A stretch of 64,000 nt of DNA, taken from positions 1,240,001 to 1,304,000 of the forward strand of contig NZ_FSQT01000001.1 of the NCBI RefSeq assembly GCF_900143515.1, given 5' to 3'. Below are positions 55,110 to 64,000 of this stretch, one piece after another. A program made the position numbers and the translations under genes. The notes beneath the pieces were generated by a model. It was not told the origin of the DNA and made no database searches. It saw only the letters and a program-made list of their open reading frames with translations. This DNA is from Micromonospora cremea. GTDB taxonomy: Bacteria > Actinomycetota > Actinomycetes > Mycobacteriales > Micromonosporaceae. Positions within the stretch are counted from its first letter, which is position 1. Each line of letters opens with the position of its first letter.

Positions 55110-55130
55110 GACCGGGCGGTCCGCCCGGTC
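55110..55130. terminator. hairpin between MocR and the ABC partner gene
   Basis: GACCGGGCGG (55110-55119) and CCGCCCGGTC (55121-55130) are complementary with almost no loop, lying between convergent stops. Confidence 0.45.
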
Positions 55131-56550
55131 AGCCCACGAGCAGGCGGACCAGGACCAGCACGGCGAGCAGCGCCGGCCCCCGCGCGCCCTGGCGCAGCAG
55201 GTCGACCGGGATCATCCCGAACGGCGTGTTCACCGTCGCCCCGCCGTAGTCGATCGCCGGTCGGGTGGCGGACCGCCAGGCGGCGGCCACCACTCCGAGC
55301 GCCAGCGTCGGCGCGAGCCACGCCGGCCCGCCGTCGACGGTCGACAGGGTCAGCAGCCACCACAGGCCCGCGCCGACTGCCGGCACGACCACGTGGATCC
55401 CGCGCAGCGCCGCGTCACTGCCACCGAGCGCCCGGCGCAACCCGGGCGACCGGCTGACCGACCGCAGGCCACCGGTCAACCGGTCGGCGGCGAGGTAGCC
55501 GAACACCACCTGCGCGGCACCGGCCAGCCCGGGCAGGGCGAGCGCCGTGGCGTACTGGACTCCGATCAGCGCCGCCCAGATCAGCAGGGCGCTGGGGTGG
55601 CGGCGGAGCCGGCGCACGTCGGCCTGGAGCAGCGCCCACCAGCCGGGGCCGGGCAGGAACCGGCTGCTGCGCACCCGGCCGATGCGGCGCCAGCGCCGGC
55701 TCTCCACCAAGCCGGTGAGCAGGCTCGGGTCGAGCAGGATCGTGGCCGTGGCGGCGGCGTTGGCGAACTGCGCGCCGGTGGTCAGGGTGGCCCGGTCCAC
55801 CCGGGGCAGCGCGCGGACCGCGAGGACGGTGGCGACGACCGCGAGAGGCACCGCGACGGCCACCAGGGCGGCGGTCGGTGTCGCCGCCGGCCGGGGCAGT
55901 CCGTCGCCGAGACGACCGACGAGCACCACCAGCCCCGTGATGATGGCGGCCGCCAGCAGCGGCACCGCCCCCGCCACGGCCGGCCACCGCCGGCCCGCCC
56001 GGCTGCTCTGGGCGACGACGCTCAGCGCCAGCGCGGCCGCTCCCCACCCCGCGCCGGCCGCCGCCGCCCAGCCCAGCGCGGTCGGGTCGCTGACGCCGCC
56101 GAGCGCCGCCACGGCCACCCCGAGCAGCGCGGTGCCGGCCGCCGCGGCCGTCAGCAGGACGCCGAGGCGTGGCGTCAGCCAGGTCCGCCGGTCGACCGGC
56201 GCGCTGGTCACCCAGCTCTGGGTCGCCGGGGTGACCAGCAGCGGACCGAGCGCCCGCAGGCCGCGCCAGGCGAGCCCGGCGCCGGCCAGCAGCGCGGCGA
56301 CCGCCAGCCACCAGCGCACCCCCGGATCGGCCCGGCCGACGGTGGGGGAGTTCAGCATGTCGCGGCTGGCGCTGATCGCGAACCAGCCGTACATGCCCAC
56401 GAAGAGGACCATGACGTACGCGTCGCCCAGCACGTCGCCCAGGGAGTGGTCGTGATGCCGGCGGCGGGCCTGGCGCAGGCGCGTACGCACCTGCCGGGCG
56501 GTGGGCACCCCGGCCGGCGCGTCGGCGACGGTTGCCGGCGGGGCGGTCAC
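55129..56550 (-). CDS. ABC-associated multi-membrane protein (DUF6297-like)
   Basis: This encodes a 473-residue protein with about ten membrane helices and a GTG start at 56550. That start overlaps the stop of the ABC ATPase by 4 nt (GTGA), so the two are partners. The N-terminus has a basic Arg/His region (RTRLRQARRRHHDHSLGD). Repeated Ala/Leu helices follow, and a central soluble region (SRRWRRIGRVRSSRFLPGPGWWALLQADVRRLRRHP). It has no EAA loop, so it is not a sugar-type permease; it resembles large actinobacterial exporters of unknown substrate. I recall this pair (ABC ATPase plus DUF6297) from Micromonospora-type genomes. Confidence 0.85.
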   Translation of the reverse strand: MTAPPATVADAPAGVPTARQVRTRLRQARRRHHDHSLGDVLGDAYVMVLFVGMYGWFAISASRDMLNSPTVGRADPGVRWWLAVAALLAGAGLAWRGLRALGPLLVTPATQSWVTSAPVDRRTWLTPRLGVLLTAAAAGTALLGVAVAALGGVSDPTALGWAAAAGAGWGAAALALSVVAQSSRAGRRWPAVAGAVPLLAAAIITGLVVLVGRLGDGLPRPAATPTAALVAVAVPLAVVATVLAVRALPRVDRATLTTGAQFANAAATATILLDPSLLTGLVESRRWRRIGRVRSSRFLPGPGWWALLQADVRRLRRHPSALLIWAALIGVQYATALALPGLAGAAQVVFGYLAADRLTGGLRSVSRSPGLRRALGGSDAALRGIHVVVPAVGAGLWWLLTLSTVDGGPAWLAPTLALGVVAAAWRSATRPAIDYGGATVNTPFGMIPVDLLRQGARGPALLAVLVLVRLLVG

Positions 56551-57170
56551 CGGCCGATCTCGATGCGCTCGTCGACCACCGCGTCGATCAGCTCCGGGTC
56601 GTGCGAGGCCAGCAGCACGGCGGTGCCCGCCTCCCGCTCCCGACGCAGCCGGTCGGCCAACCACTGCCGGCCGCGTACGTCCAGCCGCTGCTCCGGCTCG
56701 TCCAGGATCAGCACCCGGCGCGGGCGGACGAAGCAGGACGCCAGCGCCAGCCGGCGGCGCTGCCCGCTGGACAGGGTCACCGGCAGTTGGTCGCGGGCCG
56801 GTTCCAGGCCCAGCTCGGCGAGCACCTCCTCGACCGGCTCGGCGTTGCCGCCGTGCGCGTACGCGACCAGCTCCAGGTGCTCGACCACGGACAGGTCGGG
56901 AAAGAAGTCGATGTCGTCCAGGGCGGCCGCCATCAGCGCCCGGACCTGGGGATCGGTCTCGTCGGCCCGGCGCCCCTGCACCCGCACCTCGCCCGCGTCC
57001 GGCCGGTCGGCGCCGACCACGCAGCGCAGGAGGGTGGTCTTGCCGCTGCCGTTGGGGCCCAGCACCACCGCGATCCGGCCCGCCTGGAGCGTGAAGCTCA
57101 CGTCGTCGAGCACGACCAGGTTGCCGAAGTTGCGGCTAAGTCCCCGCACCGAGAGCGCATCCACGGTCAC
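56547..57170 (-). CDS. ABC transporter ATP-binding protein
   Basis: This encodes a 207-residue ATPase, complete and canonical: Walker A VLGPNGSGKTTLL, Q-loop segment about AAALDDIDFFPDLSVVEHL, signature LSSGQRRRLALASCFVRPRR, Walker B VLILDEPEQRLD and switch His in VLLASHD. GGGAGAG precedes the GTG at 57170. It powers the membrane partner at 55129. By contrast the ABC homologue at 62671 lacks these motifs. Confidence 0.94.
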   Translation of the reverse strand: MTVDALSVRGLSRNFGNLVVLDDVSFTLQAGRIAVVLGPNGSGKTTLLRCVVGADRPDAGEVRVQGRRADETDPQVRALMAAALDDIDFFPDLSVVEHLELVAYAHGGNAEPVEEVLAELGLEPARDQLPVTLSSGQRRRLALASCFVRPRRVLILDEPEQRLDVRGRQWLADRLRREREAGTAVLLASHDPELIDAVVDERIEIGR

Positions 57171-57255
57171 ACACTCTCCCAGACCCCTGCAACCGGCCAA
57201 CCTGAGCGACCCACATCACGCGGACTCCCCGTGCCCAGGGTGGGCCGAGCGCGGA

Positions 57256-59634
57256 TCACCGACCGGCGGCCGGCAGGTCGCTGTCGTCCTCCAGCCGGCT
57301 GTCCGCGGCGGCCTGCCCGTCGGCGTCGCCGACCTCCTCGGCCACCGCAGCCGCGTCCGCCCAGTGTCGCCGCGCCTCGGCCGGGTCGCCCAGCGCGGCG
57401 GCGGCATCGCCCAGGTACAGCAGGGTGCGCGCCAGCCCCGCGGTGGGCCGGCTCTCCTCGCGCAACCGCCGGCCCTCGGCCAGCAGCTCGTACGCCGCCC
57501 GCGCCTGCCCGGGCGCGGCGGCCAGCAGCGTCGCCCCGGCGTTGAGCAGCGCCGCCGCCCGGCTCGTCGGGTCGCTGACCGACTCGTACTCGCGCAGCGC
57601 GGCCCGCCACGCCTGCGCGGCGTCCAGGTGCTCGCCGAGGGCGGCGTGCACCAGCACCAGGTTGGTCAGCGCCGCCGCGTAGCCGCGGGCGTCACCCACC
57701 GACCGGAACGTGTTCGCCGCCCGCACCAGATGGTGGTGCGCGGTGTCCAGCTCCCCCCGGGCCAGCTGCGCCGCGCCGAGGCCCAGGTCGGTGAGCGCGT
57801 GCCCGGCCCGGTCCGCCCCCGAGCGGTGCCGGCGGGACAGCTCCAGGTGCTCCACCGCGTCGTCGAGCTGGCCCAGGTCGAGCAGGGCCAGCCCGAGGTT
57901 CATCCGGGCCTGGGCGGTGCCCCGCCGGCCGCGCTCGGCCACCGCGAGGGTGAGCGCGGCGGCGGCGCCCTGCGGGTCGTGCCGGCGCCGGCGCAGCACG
58001 CCCAGCTCGTTGTGCGCCCACCCGGCGATCTCCGGTCGGTCGTCGGCGGTCGGGGTGGCCAGCACGGTGCGGCAGACCTGCTCCCACTCGTCCAGCCGCT
58101 CGACGTGCGCCAGCCATCCGCACAGCGCCACGGCCAGCCGGAACCACCACCGGCGCACCCGGCGGGGCAGCGTCTCGGCCGCGCCGGCCGGCACCCGGAC
58201 CACCGCCAGCAGCAGCTCCTGGTGCAGGTCGAACCAGCCGTACGGGTCGTCGTCCAGCGGCAGTGACCACTCCCGGTCCGGTGGGGAGCCGAGGACGGCC
58301 AGGTTGGCCGCGTGCCGTTCCGCCCGGCGGGCCAGGTGCCGGGTCAGCCGGGCCTGCGCGGCGACCCGGGCCCGGGCCGGATCGGCGTCCCGCAGGTGTA
58401 GCCGGGCGTTGCCGGCCAGCAGCGGACGGATCTCGTACCGGTCGCCGGGCGCGCCCACCACGAACGCCGCGGCGGCCAACTGGTCGAGCAGCGCGGTCAC
58501 CCGTTCCGGGTGCCGGCCGGCCAGCGCGGCGATGGCCGGCCGGTCCACCGGGGCGGGGGCCAGCGACATCAGCCGGTACAGCCGGCGGGCCTCCCGGGTC
58601 AACGCCCGGTACGCGGTGTCCCGCTCGGTGACCAGCCGGGCCGCCGGCGAGACGGTGACCCGCTGGTGCGGGGGCGTCTGCACCGCGCGGCGCAGCGCGT
58701 CGAGCACGTCGGCGTGCCGCCAGCCGTGCTGGGCGGTGCGGTAGCCGAGCGCCCGGACGGTGCGGGGCTGCCGCCCGCACAGCTCGACGATCTCGCCGAC
58801 GGCGGGATCGGTGCGTGGGTCGGCGCGGCGGGCCCGCGCGGCCGGGGCGGCCCCCCCGGCGGCGGCGAACAGCTCGACCGCCTCGGCCGGGCCCGGCTCG
58901 GCGATCCAGTGCGCGACCACGCCCTCCAGCCCACTCAGCGCCGGACCGCCGGCGAGCAGCAGCCGGCAGGTCCGTGCGGTGGGCGGCAGCAGCGGCCGGA
59001 CCTGCTCGGGTCGGTCGACGTTGTCCAGCACCAGCAGGATCTTGCGGCCGTCGAGCTGGCCACGCAGCGCGTCGGCGGCGACCGCGAGGGCGTCCGGCCG
59101 GCCGGAGATCGGCGGAGCGGTGCCCAGCACCCCGGCCAGCGCGGTGAGCACCTGCCGGGCGGACCGGGGCCGACCGCCGCGGCGCAGGTCGAGGTAGTAC
59201 TGCCCGTCCGGGAAGTCCTCCCGGCACAGGTTCGCCGCCTGCACGGCGCAGGCGGAGGTGCCCACCGCCCGCCGGCCCAGCACGGCCACCGCATGCTCCC
59301 GGGTGAGCAGCGCGAGCACCGCCTCGACGTGCTCGTCGCGGCCGGTGAAGCCGGCCGGATAGGGCAGCGTCGGCGCACCGGTGGCCGGTGCGGCGACGAC
59401 CTCGGTGGGCTCCGGGCTCACCTCCCGACCGGCACGGCGCCGGCGCATCTCGAACACCACGAACCCGATCGCGCCGCTGACCACCAGCGCGATGCTGGCC
59501 GGCCCGAGCACGCTGGCCGCCAGCTCGGAGAGCATGTTGCTGGCCAGGTTGCCGAGCACCCCGCTGACCAGCGTGCCGACCGCGATCAGCACCGGCCAGC
59601 GCGGCCCCCGGCCGCTGCCGGTGGGGCCGGTCAC
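57256..59634 (-). CDS. membrane-anchored NB-ARC/TPR protein with degenerate P-loop
   Basis: This encodes a 792-residue protein, translationally coupled (GTGA) to the fused permease upstream. Two N-terminal helices (about 13-32, 45-62) are followed by RRRR and an NTPase domain of the STAND/NB-ARC type (about 92-340). The opening GFTGRDEHVEAVLALL is typical. The Walker A is GRRAVGTSA (120-128) and lacks the Lys and usual GK(S/T); Walker B ILLVLDNVD (199-207) is kept; the usual TSR sensor is replaced by LLAGGPAL. Residues 340-575 are helical. Eight or so TPR-like repeats lie at 580-775 (WAHNELGVLRRRRHDPQG, ARMNLGLALLDLGQLDDAVEHL, HALTDLGLGAAQLARGELDTA). It is probably a membrane-proximal scaffold or sensor; NTP hydrolysis is doubtful. 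Confidence 0.85.
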   Translation of the reverse strand: MTGPTGSGRGPRWPVLIAVGTLVSGVLGNLASNMLSELAASVLGPASIALVVSGAIGFVVFEMRRRRAGREVSPEPTEVVAAPATGAPTLPYPAGFTGRDEHVEAVLALLTREHAVAVLGRRAVGTSACAVQAANLCREDFPDGQYYLDLRRGGRPRSARQVLTALAGVLGTAPPISGRPDALAVAADALRGQLDGRKILLVLDNVDRPEQVRPLLPPTARTCRLLLAGGPALSGLEGVVAHWIAEPGPAEAVELFAAAGGAAPAARARRADPRTDPAVGEIVELCGRQPRTVRALGYRTAQHGWRHADVLDALRRAVQTPPHQRVTVSPAARLVTERDTAYRALTREARRLYRLMSLAPAPVDRPAIAALAGRHPERVTALLDQLAAAAFVVGAPGDRYEIRPLLAGNARLHLRDADPARARVAAQARLTRHLARRAERHAANLAVLGSPPDREWSLPLDDDPYGWFDLHQELLLAVVRVPAGAAETLPRRVRRWWFRLAVALCGWLAHVERLDEWEQVCRTVLATPTADDRPEIAGWAHNELGVLRRRRHDPQGAAAALTLAVAERGRRGTAQARMNLGLALLDLGQLDDAVEHLELSRRHRSGADRAGHALTDLGLGAAQLARGELDTAHHHLVRAANTFRSVGDARGYAAALTNLVLVHAALGEHLDAAQAWRAALREYESVSDPTSRAAALLNAGATLLAAAPGQARAAYELLAEGRRLREESRPTAGLARTLLYLGDAAAALGDPAEARRHWADAAAVAEEVGDADGQAAADSRLEDDSDLPAAGR

Positions 59635-61397
59635 CGGACGCCACCGGAGACCAGCCCGGCGACGAGCTGCCGCCGGGCGAGCACCACCAGCAGCACCGGC
59701 AACACCGAGGCGAGCACCGAGCTGGCGGCCAGCACGCCGCTGTTGGACACGAAGCCACGCGACTGCCCGGCCAGGAACAGCCCCAGCGGGGTGGCCTCCG
59801 GCCCGCTGAACAGCAGGCCCACCACCAGGTCGTTCCAGACCTGGACGAACTCCAGCACGCAGACCGCGACCACCGCGGGCAGGTTGTGCCGGGCCAGCCG
59901 GCGCAGCGTGTCCCACCAGCGCCGCCCGCCCAGCCGGGCGCCGCGCACCTGCTCGGCGGGCAGGTCGGCGAACGCGTTGCGCAGCACCAGCACCGCGAAC
60001 GGCACGCCCAACGCCACGTGCACCAGGGCCAGGCCGCGGGAGGTCCCGGAGGAGAGCACCAGGCCCAGCACCTCGTTGACCGGCCCGGCGATGACCTGGA
60101 TCGGCACGACGCTGGCGGCCAGCAGCAGCAGCCCGGTGGCCTGCGCGGCCGGCCCGGTCAACCAGGCCAGCGGGTACGCGGCCAGCAGCGCGACCACCAG
60201 CACCGTGGCGGTCACCACGGTGGCCAGCAGCAGTGTGAAGCCCAGCGTCCGCCACAGCTCGCCGCCGGTGACCAGGTCACGGTAGGAGCCGACCCCCGGC
60301 GGGGCCGACCACCAGCCGCGCGCCGCAGCGTCCACCTGCCCGTGCAGCGAGGTGGCGACCAGCACCACCAGCGGCACCAGCCAGGCCACCGCGGCACCCG
60401 CCGCGAGCAGCCGGAACACCCGCCGGGGCGGCGCCACCCGGTCCGGGTCCGGTGGTGTCTCGGCCCGCGGTGGCGGCCACGCCTGCCGCACGAACAGCGC
60501 CGCCACGAGGATCCCGCCGATGACCGCCACCAGCCACACCACACCGAGCGCGGCGCCCTCGCCGGTGGTCGTGCCACCCGAGGTCTGCCAGACCCGCAGC
60601 GCGAGCACGGCGGCCTCGTCGCGAACCGAGCCGGGGGTCATCACCAGGATCAGGTCGAAGGTGCGGCTGGTGCCCACCGCGACCAGCGCGAAGACCACCG
60701 CCACGGTACGCAGCAGCAACGGGCGCCACTGCGCGTCCCACAGCACGTGCCGGCGACCGCCGCCGTAGGCGCGTACCGCGTCGGCCAGGCTCGGCGGCAC
60801 CGCGTCCAACGCGGCCCGGAAGACCAGCACGGCCAGCCCGACCCAGGCCCAGACGAACGCCGACATCAGCGCCACCGTGACCAGGCCCGGCCCGAGCAGA
60901 TGCGGGGCGTCCTCGGCGGACCGGCCGGTCAGCCGCGCCGCGATCAGCGTGGCCAGGCCCCTGCTCGGGTCGGGGTCGTACATCAGCCGGAAGGTCACGC
61001 CGGTGACGACCAGCGGCAACGCCACCGGCACCAGCAGGATCAGGCGGACCAGCCCGCCCTCCTGGGAGCGGCGCGACGCGGCGGCGAGCAGGTAGCCCAG
61101 CGCCGTCACCACCGCCGGCACCAGCACCGCCCAGAGGACCGTGCGGCCGACCACCGCGCCGGTGTCCGGCGCGTCGAGCGCGGCGCGGAAGTGCTCTGCG
61201 CCGACCCAGTGACCGTCGGTGGTGACGCTGGCGTGCACGGTCCGCAGAACCGGCCACAGCACCAGACCGCCGAGCAGCAGGATCGCCGGCAGCAGCAGTG
61301 CGGAGGTCGCTCCGGCCGCCGGGTAGGCCCGGCCGCGCCGGGGCGGCCCCACGTCGTCGAGCACGGCCAGCTCGCCGAGCACGCGAACCTGGCTCAT
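59631..61397 (-). CDS. fused sugar-type ABC permease (MalF and MalG halves in one chain)
   Basis: This encodes a 588-residue membrane protein with two permease halves. Each has an EAA-loop-like segment: first DAVRAYGGGRRHVLWDAQWRPLLLRT (about 200-225), second LPAEQVRGARLGGRRWWDTLRRLARHNLP (about 480-510). The halves are joined by a charged linker about residue 285-315 (RQAWPPPRAETPPDPDRVAPP). The first half begins with the TM signature of MalF-type (LLLGGLVLWPVLRTVHASVT), the second with VPLVVLVATSLHG. ATG 61397 overlaps the upstream SBP stop by 4 nt. Normally two separate proteins supply these halves; the fusion is in frame and complete. The loops still could dock an ATPase, but the encoded partner ATPase is degenerate. 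Confidence 0.88.
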   Translation of the reverse strand: MSQVRVLGELAVLDDVGPPRRGRAYPAAGATSALLLPAILLLGGLVLWPVLRTVHASVTTDGHWVGAEHFRAALDAPDTGAVVGRTVLWAVLVPAVVTALGYLLAAASRRSQEGGLVRLILLVPVALPLVVTGVTFRLMYDPDPSRGLATLIAARLTGRSAEDAPHLLGPGLVTVALMSAFVWAWVGLAVLVFRAALDAVPPSLADAVRAYGGGRRHVLWDAQWRPLLLRTVAVVFALVAVGTSRTFDLILVMTPGSVRDEAAVLALRVWQTSGGTTTGEGAALGVVWLVAVIGGILVAALFVRQAWPPPRAETPPDPDRVAPPRRVFRLLAAGAAVAWLVPLVVLVATSLHGQVDAAARGWWSAPPGVGSYRDLVTGGELWRTLGFTLLLATVVTATVLVVALLAAYPLAWLTGPAAQATGLLLLAASVVPIQVIAGPVNEVLGLVLSSGTSRGLALVHVALGVPFAVLVLRNAFADLPAEQVRGARLGGRRWWDTLRRLARHNLPAVVAVCVLEFVQVWNDLVVGLLFSGPEATPLGLFLAGQSRGFVSNSGVLAASSVLASVLPVLLVVLARRQLVAGLVSGGVR

Positions 61398-62674
61398 CGG
61401 CCGCCACCCGCCCTGCGGGCCGCCGCGGCGAGGTGCCCGGTGGCCCGGCGCACCGCCTCGCCGGCGGGCACGCCGTCGGTGACGTCGGCGAAGAAGTCCT
61501 GCATGATCCGCCAGATGCCCACGCCGTCGGAGCCGGTGAACGGGCCGGGCAGCTGGTCGGAGAGGTCGAAGCGCAGGGTGCCGGGGGCGCGCATCTCGCC
61601 GGCGAGCTTGTGGCGGACCGGGTCGGTGTAGCTGTCCAGGGTGATCGTGGTGTTCGGCGACAGGTAGCCGCCGGCGTCCACCCAGGGCTGGAACGAGTCG
61701 GCCCGGGTGAGCCACTCGACCAGCTCCACCCCGCCCCGGGCGTCGGCGAACGCCACCGCCGCATCACCGCCGACGATCAGCGGGCCGCCGCCGCCCGGCC
61801 TGGCGCTCGGGAACCGGAAGGTGGCCGGCTCCTCCGGGCCACGCCGGAACCTGCCGACCACCTCGTCGGTGAAGTCGGCCTCGAAGACCATCACCGCCCG
61901 GCGGGAGCGCACCACCTGGATCACCGACTCCTCGTACTGGGTGAGCAGGGCACGGCGGCCGCCGCCGGGGAACGCGCCGTCGATGCTCCACAGCTCGGCG
62001 AGCTGGTCCAGGGCGTCGCGCACGGGCCGCCCCTGCCAGTCCGCGTCCGGCGCGGCGAGCGCGTCGTAGGCGTCGGGCGCCAGGTCGGCGAGGACGTTCT
62101 CGAACCAGTCGGTGAGCACCCAGCCGTCCGCCGCGCCGATCGCCAGCGGCGCCGGGCCGGACCCGCGCCGGGCGAGCGCGCCGAGATCGCGGGTCCGCGT
62201 GACCAGCTCGTCCCAGCTGCGCGGCGGGTTGGGCAGCACCGACGGCAGGTGCCAGATCAGGGACTTGTGCGCCGCCTTCACCCAGACGCCGTAGCGCCGC
62301 CCGCGGGTCATCAGCAGGTCGCTCAGCCCGGTCGGCACCGCGTACTCGGTCGACGGGCGCACCGGGCTCAGCCAGCCCCGCAGCGCGTACTCGGTGACCA
62401 GGCCGGGGCGCGGCAGGATCGCCACGTCGGGGCTGGTGCCGGCGAGGTGCCGGGCGCGCAGGAACGCGTCGATGTCGTTGCCGGCGCTGACCACGTGCAC
62501 CGGGGCGGGGTAGCCGGCGACGACCCGCCGGAACCGGTCCAGCTCACTCCCGCTCCAGACCACCGCCACCTGCACCGACCGGGTGCCGCCGGCGCAGCCG
62601 GTCGCGGTGGCCGCAGCGCCGGCCGCGGCGGCGCACAGCAGGGTACGCCGGGTCGCCCGGCCTCCGGCCGTCAC
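61394..62674 (-). CDS. extracellular solute-binding lipoprotein (sugar type)
   Basis: This encodes a 426-residue binding protein. The signal region is GRATRRTLLCAAAAG with a lipobox at about ATATGC (Cys27), and a twin-Arg pair. Features of the family follow: DVAILPRPGLVTEYALRGWLSPV, GLSDLLMTRGRRYGVWVKAAHKSLIW, RSWDELVTRTRDL, WFENVLADLAPDAYDALAA, and AFADARGGVELVEWLTRADSFQPWV. Ligand is likely a carbohydrate or similar, judged only by family. GTG 62674 overlaps the pseudo-ATPase stop by 4 nt. Confidence 0.9.
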   Translation of the reverse strand: MTAGGRATRRTLLCAAAAGAAATATGCAGGTRSVQVAVVWSGSELDRFRRVVAGYPAPVHVVSAGNDIDAFLRARHLAGTSPDVAILPRPGLVTEYALRGWLSPVRPSTEYAVPTGLSDLLMTRGRRYGVWVKAAHKSLIWHLPSVLPNPPRSWDELVTRTRDLGALARRGSGPAPLAIGAADGWVLTDWFENVLADLAPDAYDALAAPDADWQGRPVRDALDQLAELWSIDGAFPGGGRRALLTQYEESVIQVVRSRRAVMVFEADFTDEVVGRFRRGPEEPATFRFPSARPGGGGPLIVGGDAAVAFADARGGVELVEWLTRADSFQPWVDAGGYLSPNTTITLDSYTDPVRHKLAGEMRAPGTLRFDLSDQLPGPFTGSDGVGIWRIMQDFFADVTDGVPAGEAVRRATGHLAAAARRAGGGR

Positions 62675-63303
62675 CGGACCGTCCCCTCGGGCTCGGTGAC
62701 CAGGTCGTGCCGGCGCGGGATCTCGACCAGGGTGGCCGGGTCGGCGGTGCACACCAGCACGGCCACCCCCGGCGCGTCCGGTGGGGACAGTCGGGGCAGC
62801 AGGTCGCCGAGGCGGCTGCCGCCGGCCGGCTCGGCGGGCAGGTCGACGACGAGGACCTCGGGCAGGCAGACCGCGGCCCGGGCCAGCGCCACCCGGAACC
62901 GCTGGGCGTCGGAGAGCAGGTGCGGCAGCAGGGCCAGCGTCGGGGCCAGCTCCAGCCGGTCCACCACGGTGGCCGTCCAGTCGTCGGCCACCTCGTGCAC
63001 CCGTTCGCGTTTGCGCTGGCCGTACTCGATGTTGCGACGCACGGTGAGCTGCGGCAGCAGAGCGCCGCCGGCGGGCACGTAGCCGATCTGCCGGCGCGGC
63101 GGCGGCAGGGCGGTGACGTCCCGCTCGCCGACGATGACCCGCCCGGTGACCGGGGCGGCGAGCCCGGCCAGCACCCGGGCCACGGCCGTGCCGACCCGGG
63201 GCGGCGCCACCAGGGCGGCGGTCGTGCCGGCCGGAACCTCGAGGGTCACCGGCCCGGTGCCGGGGACGGCGACCAGTGCGCGTAGCCGTAACGTGACCCT
63301 CAC
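62671..63303 (-). CDS. ABC-ATPase homologue with degenerate catalytic motifs (pseudo-ATPase)
   Basis: This encodes a 210-residue protein with the overall ABC nucleotide-binding domain layout. Walker A is replaced by VAPPRVGTAV (33-40, no Lys), the Q-loop Gln is missing (IGYVPAGGALLPQLTV), the signature is LSDAQRFRVALARA (130-143), and Walker B keeps Asp154 but not the catalytic Glu (VLVVDLPAEP). The switch His is replaced (VLVCTADPATL). The LTVRRNIEYG helix is retained. Five of five motifs are altered, so ATP hydrolysis is unlikely. The start is uncertain: GTG 63303, GTG 63339 and ATG 63375 are in frame, none with a clear ribosome site. First gene of the coupled operon. Confidence 0.8.
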   Translation of the reverse strand: MRVTLRLRALVAVPGTGPVTLEVPAGTTAALVAPPRVGTAVARVLAGLAAPVTGRVIVGERDVTALPPPRRQIGYVPAGGALLPQLTVRRNIEYGQRKRERVHEVADDWTATVVDRLELAPTLALLPHLLSDAQRFRVALARAAVCLPEVLVVDLPAEPAGGSRLGDLLPRLSPPDAPGVAVLVCTADPATLVEIPRRHDLVTEPEGTVR

Positions 63304-63406: not shown

Positions 63407-64000
63407 CTACCGGGCCGGCTGGTCGGTGGGGGCGTAGAGGGCGGCCAGCCCGGCCGCCGTGGCGGAGAGCCGCTCGCGCAGCGCGACCGGGGTCAGCACC
63501 TCCACGTCGGCTCCGAGACGCAGCAGGTCACCGTGCGCGTGGGTGAGCGACTCGATCGGCAGCACCGCGGTCACCCAGCCCTGGGCGTCCGGCGGCCCGG
63601 CGGTGGCGTCCACCGCGGCCACCACCGGATCGCTGCCGATCTCCCGCAGCCGCTCCCGGCCGCCCGGGGAGAGCCGCACGGTGGCCTCGTCCTGGTGCAG
63701 CCGGGCCCGGAACTGCGCCACGTGCGCCCGCCACCAGGCCGGCAGGTCGAAGTCGGCCGGCCGGTCGAACTCCTGCGCGAGGGGGGTCAGCGCGAGGATC
63801 TGGTTGACCCGGTACGTCGCCGGGGCGCCGCGGCCGGGCCGGTCGGCCACCACGTACCACCGGCCGCCCTTGAGCACCAGCCCGTACGGCTCCAGCACCC
63901 GGGTCACCTCGCCGCGCCAGCTGCGGTAGCGCACCTCGATGCGGTGCTGCCGCCAGACCGCCTCGGCCGTGCGGGCCAGCTCGGGGGAGGCGTCGCCGTC
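63407..64000 (-). CDS. WYL-domain transcriptional regulator, 5' part outside window
   Basis: This is the 3' portion (at least 197 codons) of a YafY-type regulator. It contains the WYL-domain strand [35 protein letters not shown] and [27 protein letters not shown], then the C-terminal extension ([36 protein letters not shown]). The reading frame stays open to the window edge, and its N-terminal HTH must lie beyond 64000. WYL proteins bind nucleic-acid ligands or small molecules, and often sit next to transport, DNA-repair or defence genes. It is 103 nt upstream of the pseudo-ATPase operon on the same strand. Confidence 0.88.

Follow-up and report, generated by a model that had tools for sequence, protein, structure and literature searches.

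The closest described counterpart of the locus reported here, a four-gene operon in a 64,000-nucleotide (nt) stretch of Micromonospora cremea (contig NZ_FSQT01000001.1, positions 1,240,001 to 1,304,000; this whole stretch is referred to as the window), is the maltose system MalEFGK2-MalT of Escherichia coli. Both sets comprise a sugar-binding protein, a permease of the MalF/MalG type, a subunit of the MalK fold and a signal transduction ATPase with numerous domains (STAND) that carries a repeat sensor. MalK of the idle maltose transporter sequesters the STAND protein MalT at the membrane (PMC10427625, PMC6468293). MalK hydrolyses ATP and MalT is an ATP/ADP-binding transcription factor, whereas in the operon both the ATP-binding cassette (ABC) ATPase and the STAND protein lack the P-loop Lys; in addition the permease is fused, the gene-4 product carries a hydrophobic hairpin and matches no DNA-binding domain above the cut-offs, and all four genes form one operon. 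This dead ATPase and this Lys-less STAND protein are co-conserved over two orders, and we consider that the set may be an importer turned into a receptor.

Other known systems share single parts of the module. The mycobacterial trehalose importer LpqY-SugABC provides the best solved relatives of the permease halves, and its binding protein and ATPase are related too, whereas it has separate permeases, a working SugC and no STAND protein. The STAND regulator AfsR of Streptomyces, of the SARP-STAND type, aligns through its NOD (nucleotide-binding oligomerization domain) and TPR core with residues 88-645 of gene 4 (E 8e-40), whereas its N-terminus is a SARP DNA-binding region where gene 4 has the hydrophobic hairpin, and gene 4 has a Lys-less P-loop. 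Sugar importers of actinobacteria are often driven by the shared ATPase MsiK and lack one of their own; like the module, their operons combine a sugar-binding lipoprotein with MalF/G-type permeases and encode no working ATPase, whereas they contain neither a dead ATPase nor a STAND protein, and the nearby relatives keep their EAA loops. A canonical relative (L055) shows the same gene order of ATPase, binding protein, permease and permease, with 4-nt overlaps at two junctions and a binding protein about 35% identical to gene 2; unlike the module it has intact ATPase motifs, separate permeases and no STAND match in the locus. As a separate observation, the first permeases of three canonical relatives (L055:8701-10131, L057:8335-9588, L058:8850-10259) contain an inserted CarboxypepD_reg/SdrD_B-like domain, which is unexpected in a sugar ABC permease.

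The four genes and their altered motifs

The operon and the stretches discussed below are as follows.

62671..63303, minus strand: gene 1, pseudo-ABC ATPase of 210 amino acids (aa), MalK/SugC-like nucleotide-binding-domain (NBD) fold without catalytic motifs
63184..63207, minus strand: degenerate P-loop of gene 1, residues 33-40, APPRVGTA, no Lys
63022..63093, minus strand: post-Q-loop region of gene 1 with 'GYVPAGGALLPQLTV..NI', residues 71-94, the most conserved part of the protein
61394..62674, minus strand: gene 2, sugar-type solute-binding lipoprotein of 426 aa, PF13416 below its cut-off
59631..61397, minus strand: gene 3, fused two-half permease of 588 aa in a single open reading frame (ORF), PF00528
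60705..60800, minus strand: first coupling (EAA) loop, gene 3 residues 200-231
59868..59963, minus strand: second coupling (EAA) loop, gene 3 residues 479-510
57256..59634, minus strand: gene 4, STAND (NB-ARC/NOD + TPR) protein of 792 aa without the P-loop Lys
59437..59595, minus strand: residues 14-66 of gene 4, a hydrophobic N-terminal hairpin that closes with RRRR and probably anchors the protein in the membrane
59254..59277, minus strand: altered P-loop of gene 4, residues 120-127, GRRAVGTS

The genes lie head to tail on the minus strand, and each adjacent pair has 4 nt in common. When the ORFs were read again, the coordinates, strand and overlaps given by an original prediction, made from the letters of the window, were all correct. 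It had also claimed that both predicted NTPases have lost the P-loop Lys and that the permease halves are fused, and both claims hold: at this motif the ABC protein reads APPRVGTA and the STAND protein GRRAVGTS, and one ORF of 588 aa contains halves matching SugA and SugB.

Gene 1, whose closest named relatives come from Micromonospora, is related to the mycobacterial SugC ATPase, and has further lost the Walker-B Glu, the LSGGQ signature, the Q-loop Gln and the H-loop His. These losses are general. Motifs were counted in 109 loci, which gave 81 distinct gene-1 proteins (some genomes were sampled twice, and a cut-off of 150 aa excluded one fragment of 100 aa, at L092), and Walker A GxxxxGK[ST], hhhDE[PA] and LSGG[QE] were each found in 0/81; the string [TS]HD occurs in 2/81, counted regardless of position. 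Even the most canonical-looking gene 1 among those viewed (L104) reads GPSGFGGTT, a single Lys replacement. The GYVPAGGALLPQLTV..NI motif, on the other hand, is kept in 80 of the 81 proteins. In an alignment of 36 sequences (A5) mean column identity is 0.74 over residues 71-94 and 0.68 over the signature helix, with 0.50 overall, 0.47 in the P-loop and 0.46 in Walker B. The post-Q-loop region of MalK-type subunits faces the coupling helix of the permease. Judged by this pattern of conservation and by the altered coupling loops of the permease, the docking surface of one dead subunit seems to be retained and the power-stroke parts to be gone, with the second docking site seemingly more eroded. 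As an observation apart, the pseudo-ATPases of three loci from one genus (L101, L102, L103) are much extended at the C-terminus (372 aa in all), and a Pfam scan of one copy gave no further match; directly upstream of each lies a lipoprotein-like gene of about 410 aa, of which the copy in L102 is without a Pfam match.

Gene 2 has an RR signal and a lipobox-like Cys, found in 75/85 and 72/85 distinct gene-2 proteins respectively, and a conserved GAADGWVLTDWFEN. Its nearest solved relatives in a profile search are NagB2 (7eho, E 2e-12) and LpqY. In gene 3 hydropathy gives 12 hydrophobic segments, and the best solved relatives of the halves are SugB (E 9e-30) and SugA (E 8e-18), with MalF and MalG matched too. 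The EAA coupling motif of a type I importer is present in neither half. Among 80 sequences the EAA Glu position holds Asp in 53, Arg in 24, Ser in 3 and Glu in none in the first loop, and Arg in 61 and Glu in none in the second; the loop Gly of the second is kept in 53 and gapped in 14. In each of the nearest four canonical relatives (L055-L058) the second permease keeps EAA. Four distinct fused permeases do contain EAAxxxG, within strings unlike the coupling loops. Database names for gene 3 are often alpha-glucoside permease or transporter (best 120 of 231 matches), an annotation that is probably misleading. In one genome (G846:C257:40357-42129) the fused permease was matched as two adjacent pieces in one open frame of 726 aa, possibly owing to an insertion between the halves.

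In gene 4, GxxxxGK[ST] occurs in none of 79 distinct proteins (106 loci), and the position of the P-loop Lys is Thr in 100, Ser in 2 and Ala in 2 of 104 readable rows, the following residue being Ser in 102; the row of L208, read from an inner start, was unreadable and lies outside the 104. The Walker-B acidic residue is kept, D204 and N205 being invariant among 35 sequences (alignment A6). NB-ARC was not called in a Pfam scan of the protein. Its assignment to the NB-ARC/TPR kind in the original prediction is nevertheless supported by matches to AfsR and plant nucleotide-binding leucine-rich repeat (NLR) proteins and by the predicted fold, which combines a NOD (NBD, helical domain and winged-helix domain), modelled with high confidence, with a repeat sensor. 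No DNA-binding family was found in gene 4 by Pfam (E up to 0.1), and the NCBIfam matches, which cover residues 52-781, include no such stretch. Two hydrophobic segments stand at the N-terminus of the window protein and of 67/77 distinct orthologues. In the model this hairpin is in part of low confidence, as is much of residues 1-88; from its sequence it is likely to be a membrane anchor, and the positive-inside rule applied to RRRR would then place the NOD and TPR parts in the cytoplasm.

Distribution, selection and neighbourhood of the module

The original prediction had proposed a search for the same gene order elsewhere, with an inspection of the motifs in each locus. The order was found in 52/53 loci selected by permease or binding protein, and catalytic motifs are kept in 0/81 of the ATPases and 0/79 of the STAND proteins. 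Intact motifs in orthologous operons were among the findings that, by the original prediction, would have spoken against it, and this check did not refute it. The pooled figure combines 15/15 same-genus loci selected by the solute-binding protein, 17/18 loci of the family selected by the permease, where the exception (L105) is cut by a contig end, and 20/20 permease-selected loci of a second order, Streptosporangiales. Loci selected by an ATPase pattern gave all four genes in 52/56, these 56 being the ones, among 80, that had both a binding-protein and a permease match; they are biased towards altered Q-loops, a bias from which the 53 are free. In the other 24, L133 ends before the permease and 23 had no binding-protein or permease match. 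Those 23 partnerless ATPases keep GxxxxGK[ST] in 19 cases and not in 4, so that the pattern alone does not select for P-loop loss. The four that lack the motif in the frame read (L169, L174, L179, L187) lie outside the module, and the frame may be wrong. In the M. cremea genome the P-loop Lys is present in 27/27 other scored ABC ATPases (from the best 30 of 67 matches, comprising gene 1 itself, the 27 and 2 without a local hit) and in 5/5 other NB-ARC matches. Since the P-loop losses recur in every orthologue counted, they are not due to chance.

Orthologues of gene 2 (at least 71% identity) are found in 16/37 genomes of the genus including its own, and the other 15 all have the four-gene set; Micromonospora lupini Lupac 08 (L112) is a named carrier of the operon. 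The fused permease (at least 41% identity) occurs in 62/300 genomes of the family, its own included, of which 45 belong to the genus and 17 to 12 other genera, a count that contains a few matches in pieces on separate contigs or split. A single Streptosporangiales permease served as query for two wider searches: in a class-wide sample of 394 genomes the permease was found at E<=1e-40 in two, its own genome and G652, and in the order of G652 it was found in 36/345 genomes. That order is placed in Streptosporangiales by loci that agree with records of Actinoallomurus spadix and Nonomuraea glycinis, through the taxonomy of A. spadix. A locus from another family of the same order as M. cremea (L054) has the binding protein, the fused permease and a Lys-less STAND gene, and its contig ends before the ATPase.

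All four genes are under purifying selection. In nine same-genus pairs for each gene, dN/dS against the window gene is 0.18-0.43 for gene 1, 0.25-0.39 for gene 2, 0.13-0.24 for gene 3 and 0.09-0.31 for gene 4. Pairwise identities among the four genes correlate at 0.87-0.96 over 32 loci, to which shared ancestry contributes. The 4-nt overlaps are kept in 13/15, 15/15 and 15/15 at the three junctions when starts are chosen without overlap preference, as in L039-L053; in the sets from L089 on, an overlap-preferring script was used, and with it the Streptosporangiales set has 0/20 at -4 for the junction of genes 1 and 2, and 18/20 and 20/20 for the other two. With the same order, overlaps and correlated divergence the four genes behave as one module, and the module is not a case of local decay.

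The surroundings, in a host genome of 7.76 Mb in two contigs, are far more variable. One neighbour is listed here.

63407..64000, minus strand: WYL/WCX regulator (Pfam WYL and WCX), upstream neighbour, cut by the window end

The end of this gene at 63407 lies 103 nt upstream of the start codon of gene 1, as the original prediction stated, and its membership of the module was rejected: it is present in 10/15 same-genus loci and 1/20 further loci, that one belonging to the same genus too. A fifth conserved gene was likewise rejected, as the flanking ORF families each occur in at most 5/24 loci in a survey by a simple script based on third-position G+C content (GC3), with some wrong calls, which missed some of the four genes themselves. 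Upstream of the operon an RNA family or a sigma-70-type promoter was looked for and neither was found, and actinobacterial promoters may not fit the sigma-70 consensus. Directly downstream, 55129-57200 encodes an ABC ATPase whose P-loop is intact and an ORF resembling a membrane protein, which accompany the operon in 7/15 same-genus loci.

Importer, receptor or switch

We favour, at about an even chance, the reading that a type I sugar ABC importer has become a receptor which does not hydrolyse ATP and is linked to a STAND-fold adaptor. The lipoprotein would bind an extracellular sugar-like ligand and dock on the fused permease, and the permease would change its shape. The pseudo-ATPase would remain docked underneath as a structural element, and together with the membrane-anchored NB-ARC/TPR protein it would relay the shape change by protein contact, neither of them hydrolysing ATP; the output end may be a TPR-bound partner encoded elsewhere. 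A receptor is favoured because MalFGK2-MalT illustrates how a subunit of the MalK fold can keep a STAND protein at the membrane and let it go during transport, and because all four kinds of protein recur here in one operon, the STAND protein with a likely anchor of its own and neither NTPase with its Lys. The constancy of the four-gene set, the motif losses, the purifying selection and correlated divergence, the high conservation of the post-Q-loop stretch and signature helix of gene 1, and the loss of the EAA Glu from both coupling loops also speak for it. What bears on a putative contact between the pseudo-ATPase and the STAND protein is genetic linkage and correlated divergence. The transport-derived sensory complex of the original prediction stands as the best reading on offer, with its motif losses conserved, while ligand binding, complex formation, the direction of signalling and the output are what we infer from these features. 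The absence of a working ATPase from the operon, which that prediction took as its argument, is true and yet proves little alone, since actinobacterial importers commonly rely on MsiK; the conserved dead ATPase is the more telling fact.

Several points weigh against the receptor. The patches of MalK that touch MalT sit on its C-terminal domain (PMC6468293), and they are absent from the window pseudo-ATPase, which has no such domain. The best Foldseek match of the gene 4 model, PH0952, in itself speaks for the receptor, having been used to model MalT (PMC6468293), but its TM-score is low (0.33, rmsd 22.9), the domains being alike and their arrangement different. The former H-loop stretch of gene 1 has a conservation of 0.54 in A5, slightly over the average, and the Gly of the first coupling loop is kept in 75/80 permeases, so that an NBD may still be able to dock there and function. 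In one locus (L092, genome G090) the short gene 1 shows an apparent frameshift near the conserved GGGLLP beside three full-length ORFs, which is either a sequencing error or a real loss. The flanking ORF families, being so infrequent, suggest no target for the module. The host genome, finally, encodes a UgpC/MsiK-type ATPase.

The last point leads to the strongest alternative, a possible though rather unlikely one, in which the module continues to import sugar: an MsiK-type ATPase acting in trans would dock on at least one permease half and power uptake, the pseudo-ATPase would be an inactive second subunit, and regulation would fall to the STAND protein. The ATPase in question (L005) is intact and above the NF008653 cut-off, the binding protein retains its GAADGWVLTDWFEN motif, and two canonical relatives (L057, L058) have a binding protein and two permeases without an adjacent ATPase, the nearest ATPase match of L057 being 33% and 5.4 kb upstream and L058 having none. 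However, the EAA Glu stands in neither coupling loop, and the Arg of the second is the common state; a docking site would be taken up by the dead NBD, which none of the counted loci lacks and whose docking stretch is conserved; and known degenerate heterodimers usually retain the Walker-A Lys.

Less probable, and quite unlikely in our view, is that the STAND protein is live, its conserved GxxxxGTS binding nucleotide in an unusual manner, which would make the module an atypical receptor-gated nucleotide switch. This is compatible with a sensor, and such binding is conceivable because the P-loop has been rewritten to a conserved GTS rather than randomised; the near-uniform Thr, the invariant Walker-B Asp and following Asn, and the confidently modelled NOD agree with it. 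The P-loop Lys is, however, the standard phosphate contact, and every one of the 79 distinct proteins has lost it. Still less credible, indeed improbable, is an ATP-independent gated pore or facilitator, in which the binding protein would open the permease and let its substrate pass downhill, the pseudo-ATPase being a structural plug: permease and binding protein are well conserved, also in dN/dS, without a working ATPase, but the accompanying STAND/TPR protein is left without a role, and no type I permease that depends on a binding protein is known to us to let sugar flow downhill without ATP. An operon decaying towards loss, for which its patchy presence in the genus and the single frameshifted gene 1 might speak, is hardly tenable and was rejected, as purifying selection in the nine pairs tested largely refutes it, along with the intact ORFs, the retained overlaps and the recurrence of the losses in two orders.

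The receptor reading has a stronger form, which we advance tentatively and with some doubt: a whole importer would have given up ATP hydrolysis altogether to act as a receptor, and its signal would pass to an NLR-like STAND protein in the membrane that likewise works without the P-loop Lys, a nucleotide-independent signalling route from importer to NLR conserved in two orders. In the simplest history of the module, gene 1 would have lost catalysis, the permeases would have fused, and a STAND gene would have been captured.

What the module may mean

The original prediction knew of no described system with this combination, and our search of open-access PMC full text likewise gave no description of the four-gene set, its matches being unrelated. 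Each component belongs to a known kind, and transporters with a signalling role have been described already; we know of no earlier importer complex wholly turned into a sensor, and if the module is a receptor it would be, to our knowledge, the first. ATP binding is the defining property of ABC importers as well as of STAND/NLR proteins, and here members of both are co-conserved in two orders without the residue that grips ATP. A receptor of this kind would offer a natural separation of signalling from transport, which have long been entangled in MalFGK2-MalT and other signalling transporters, and it would provide a protein of the NLR fold in which conformational signalling may be studied apart from the usual nucleotide cycle.

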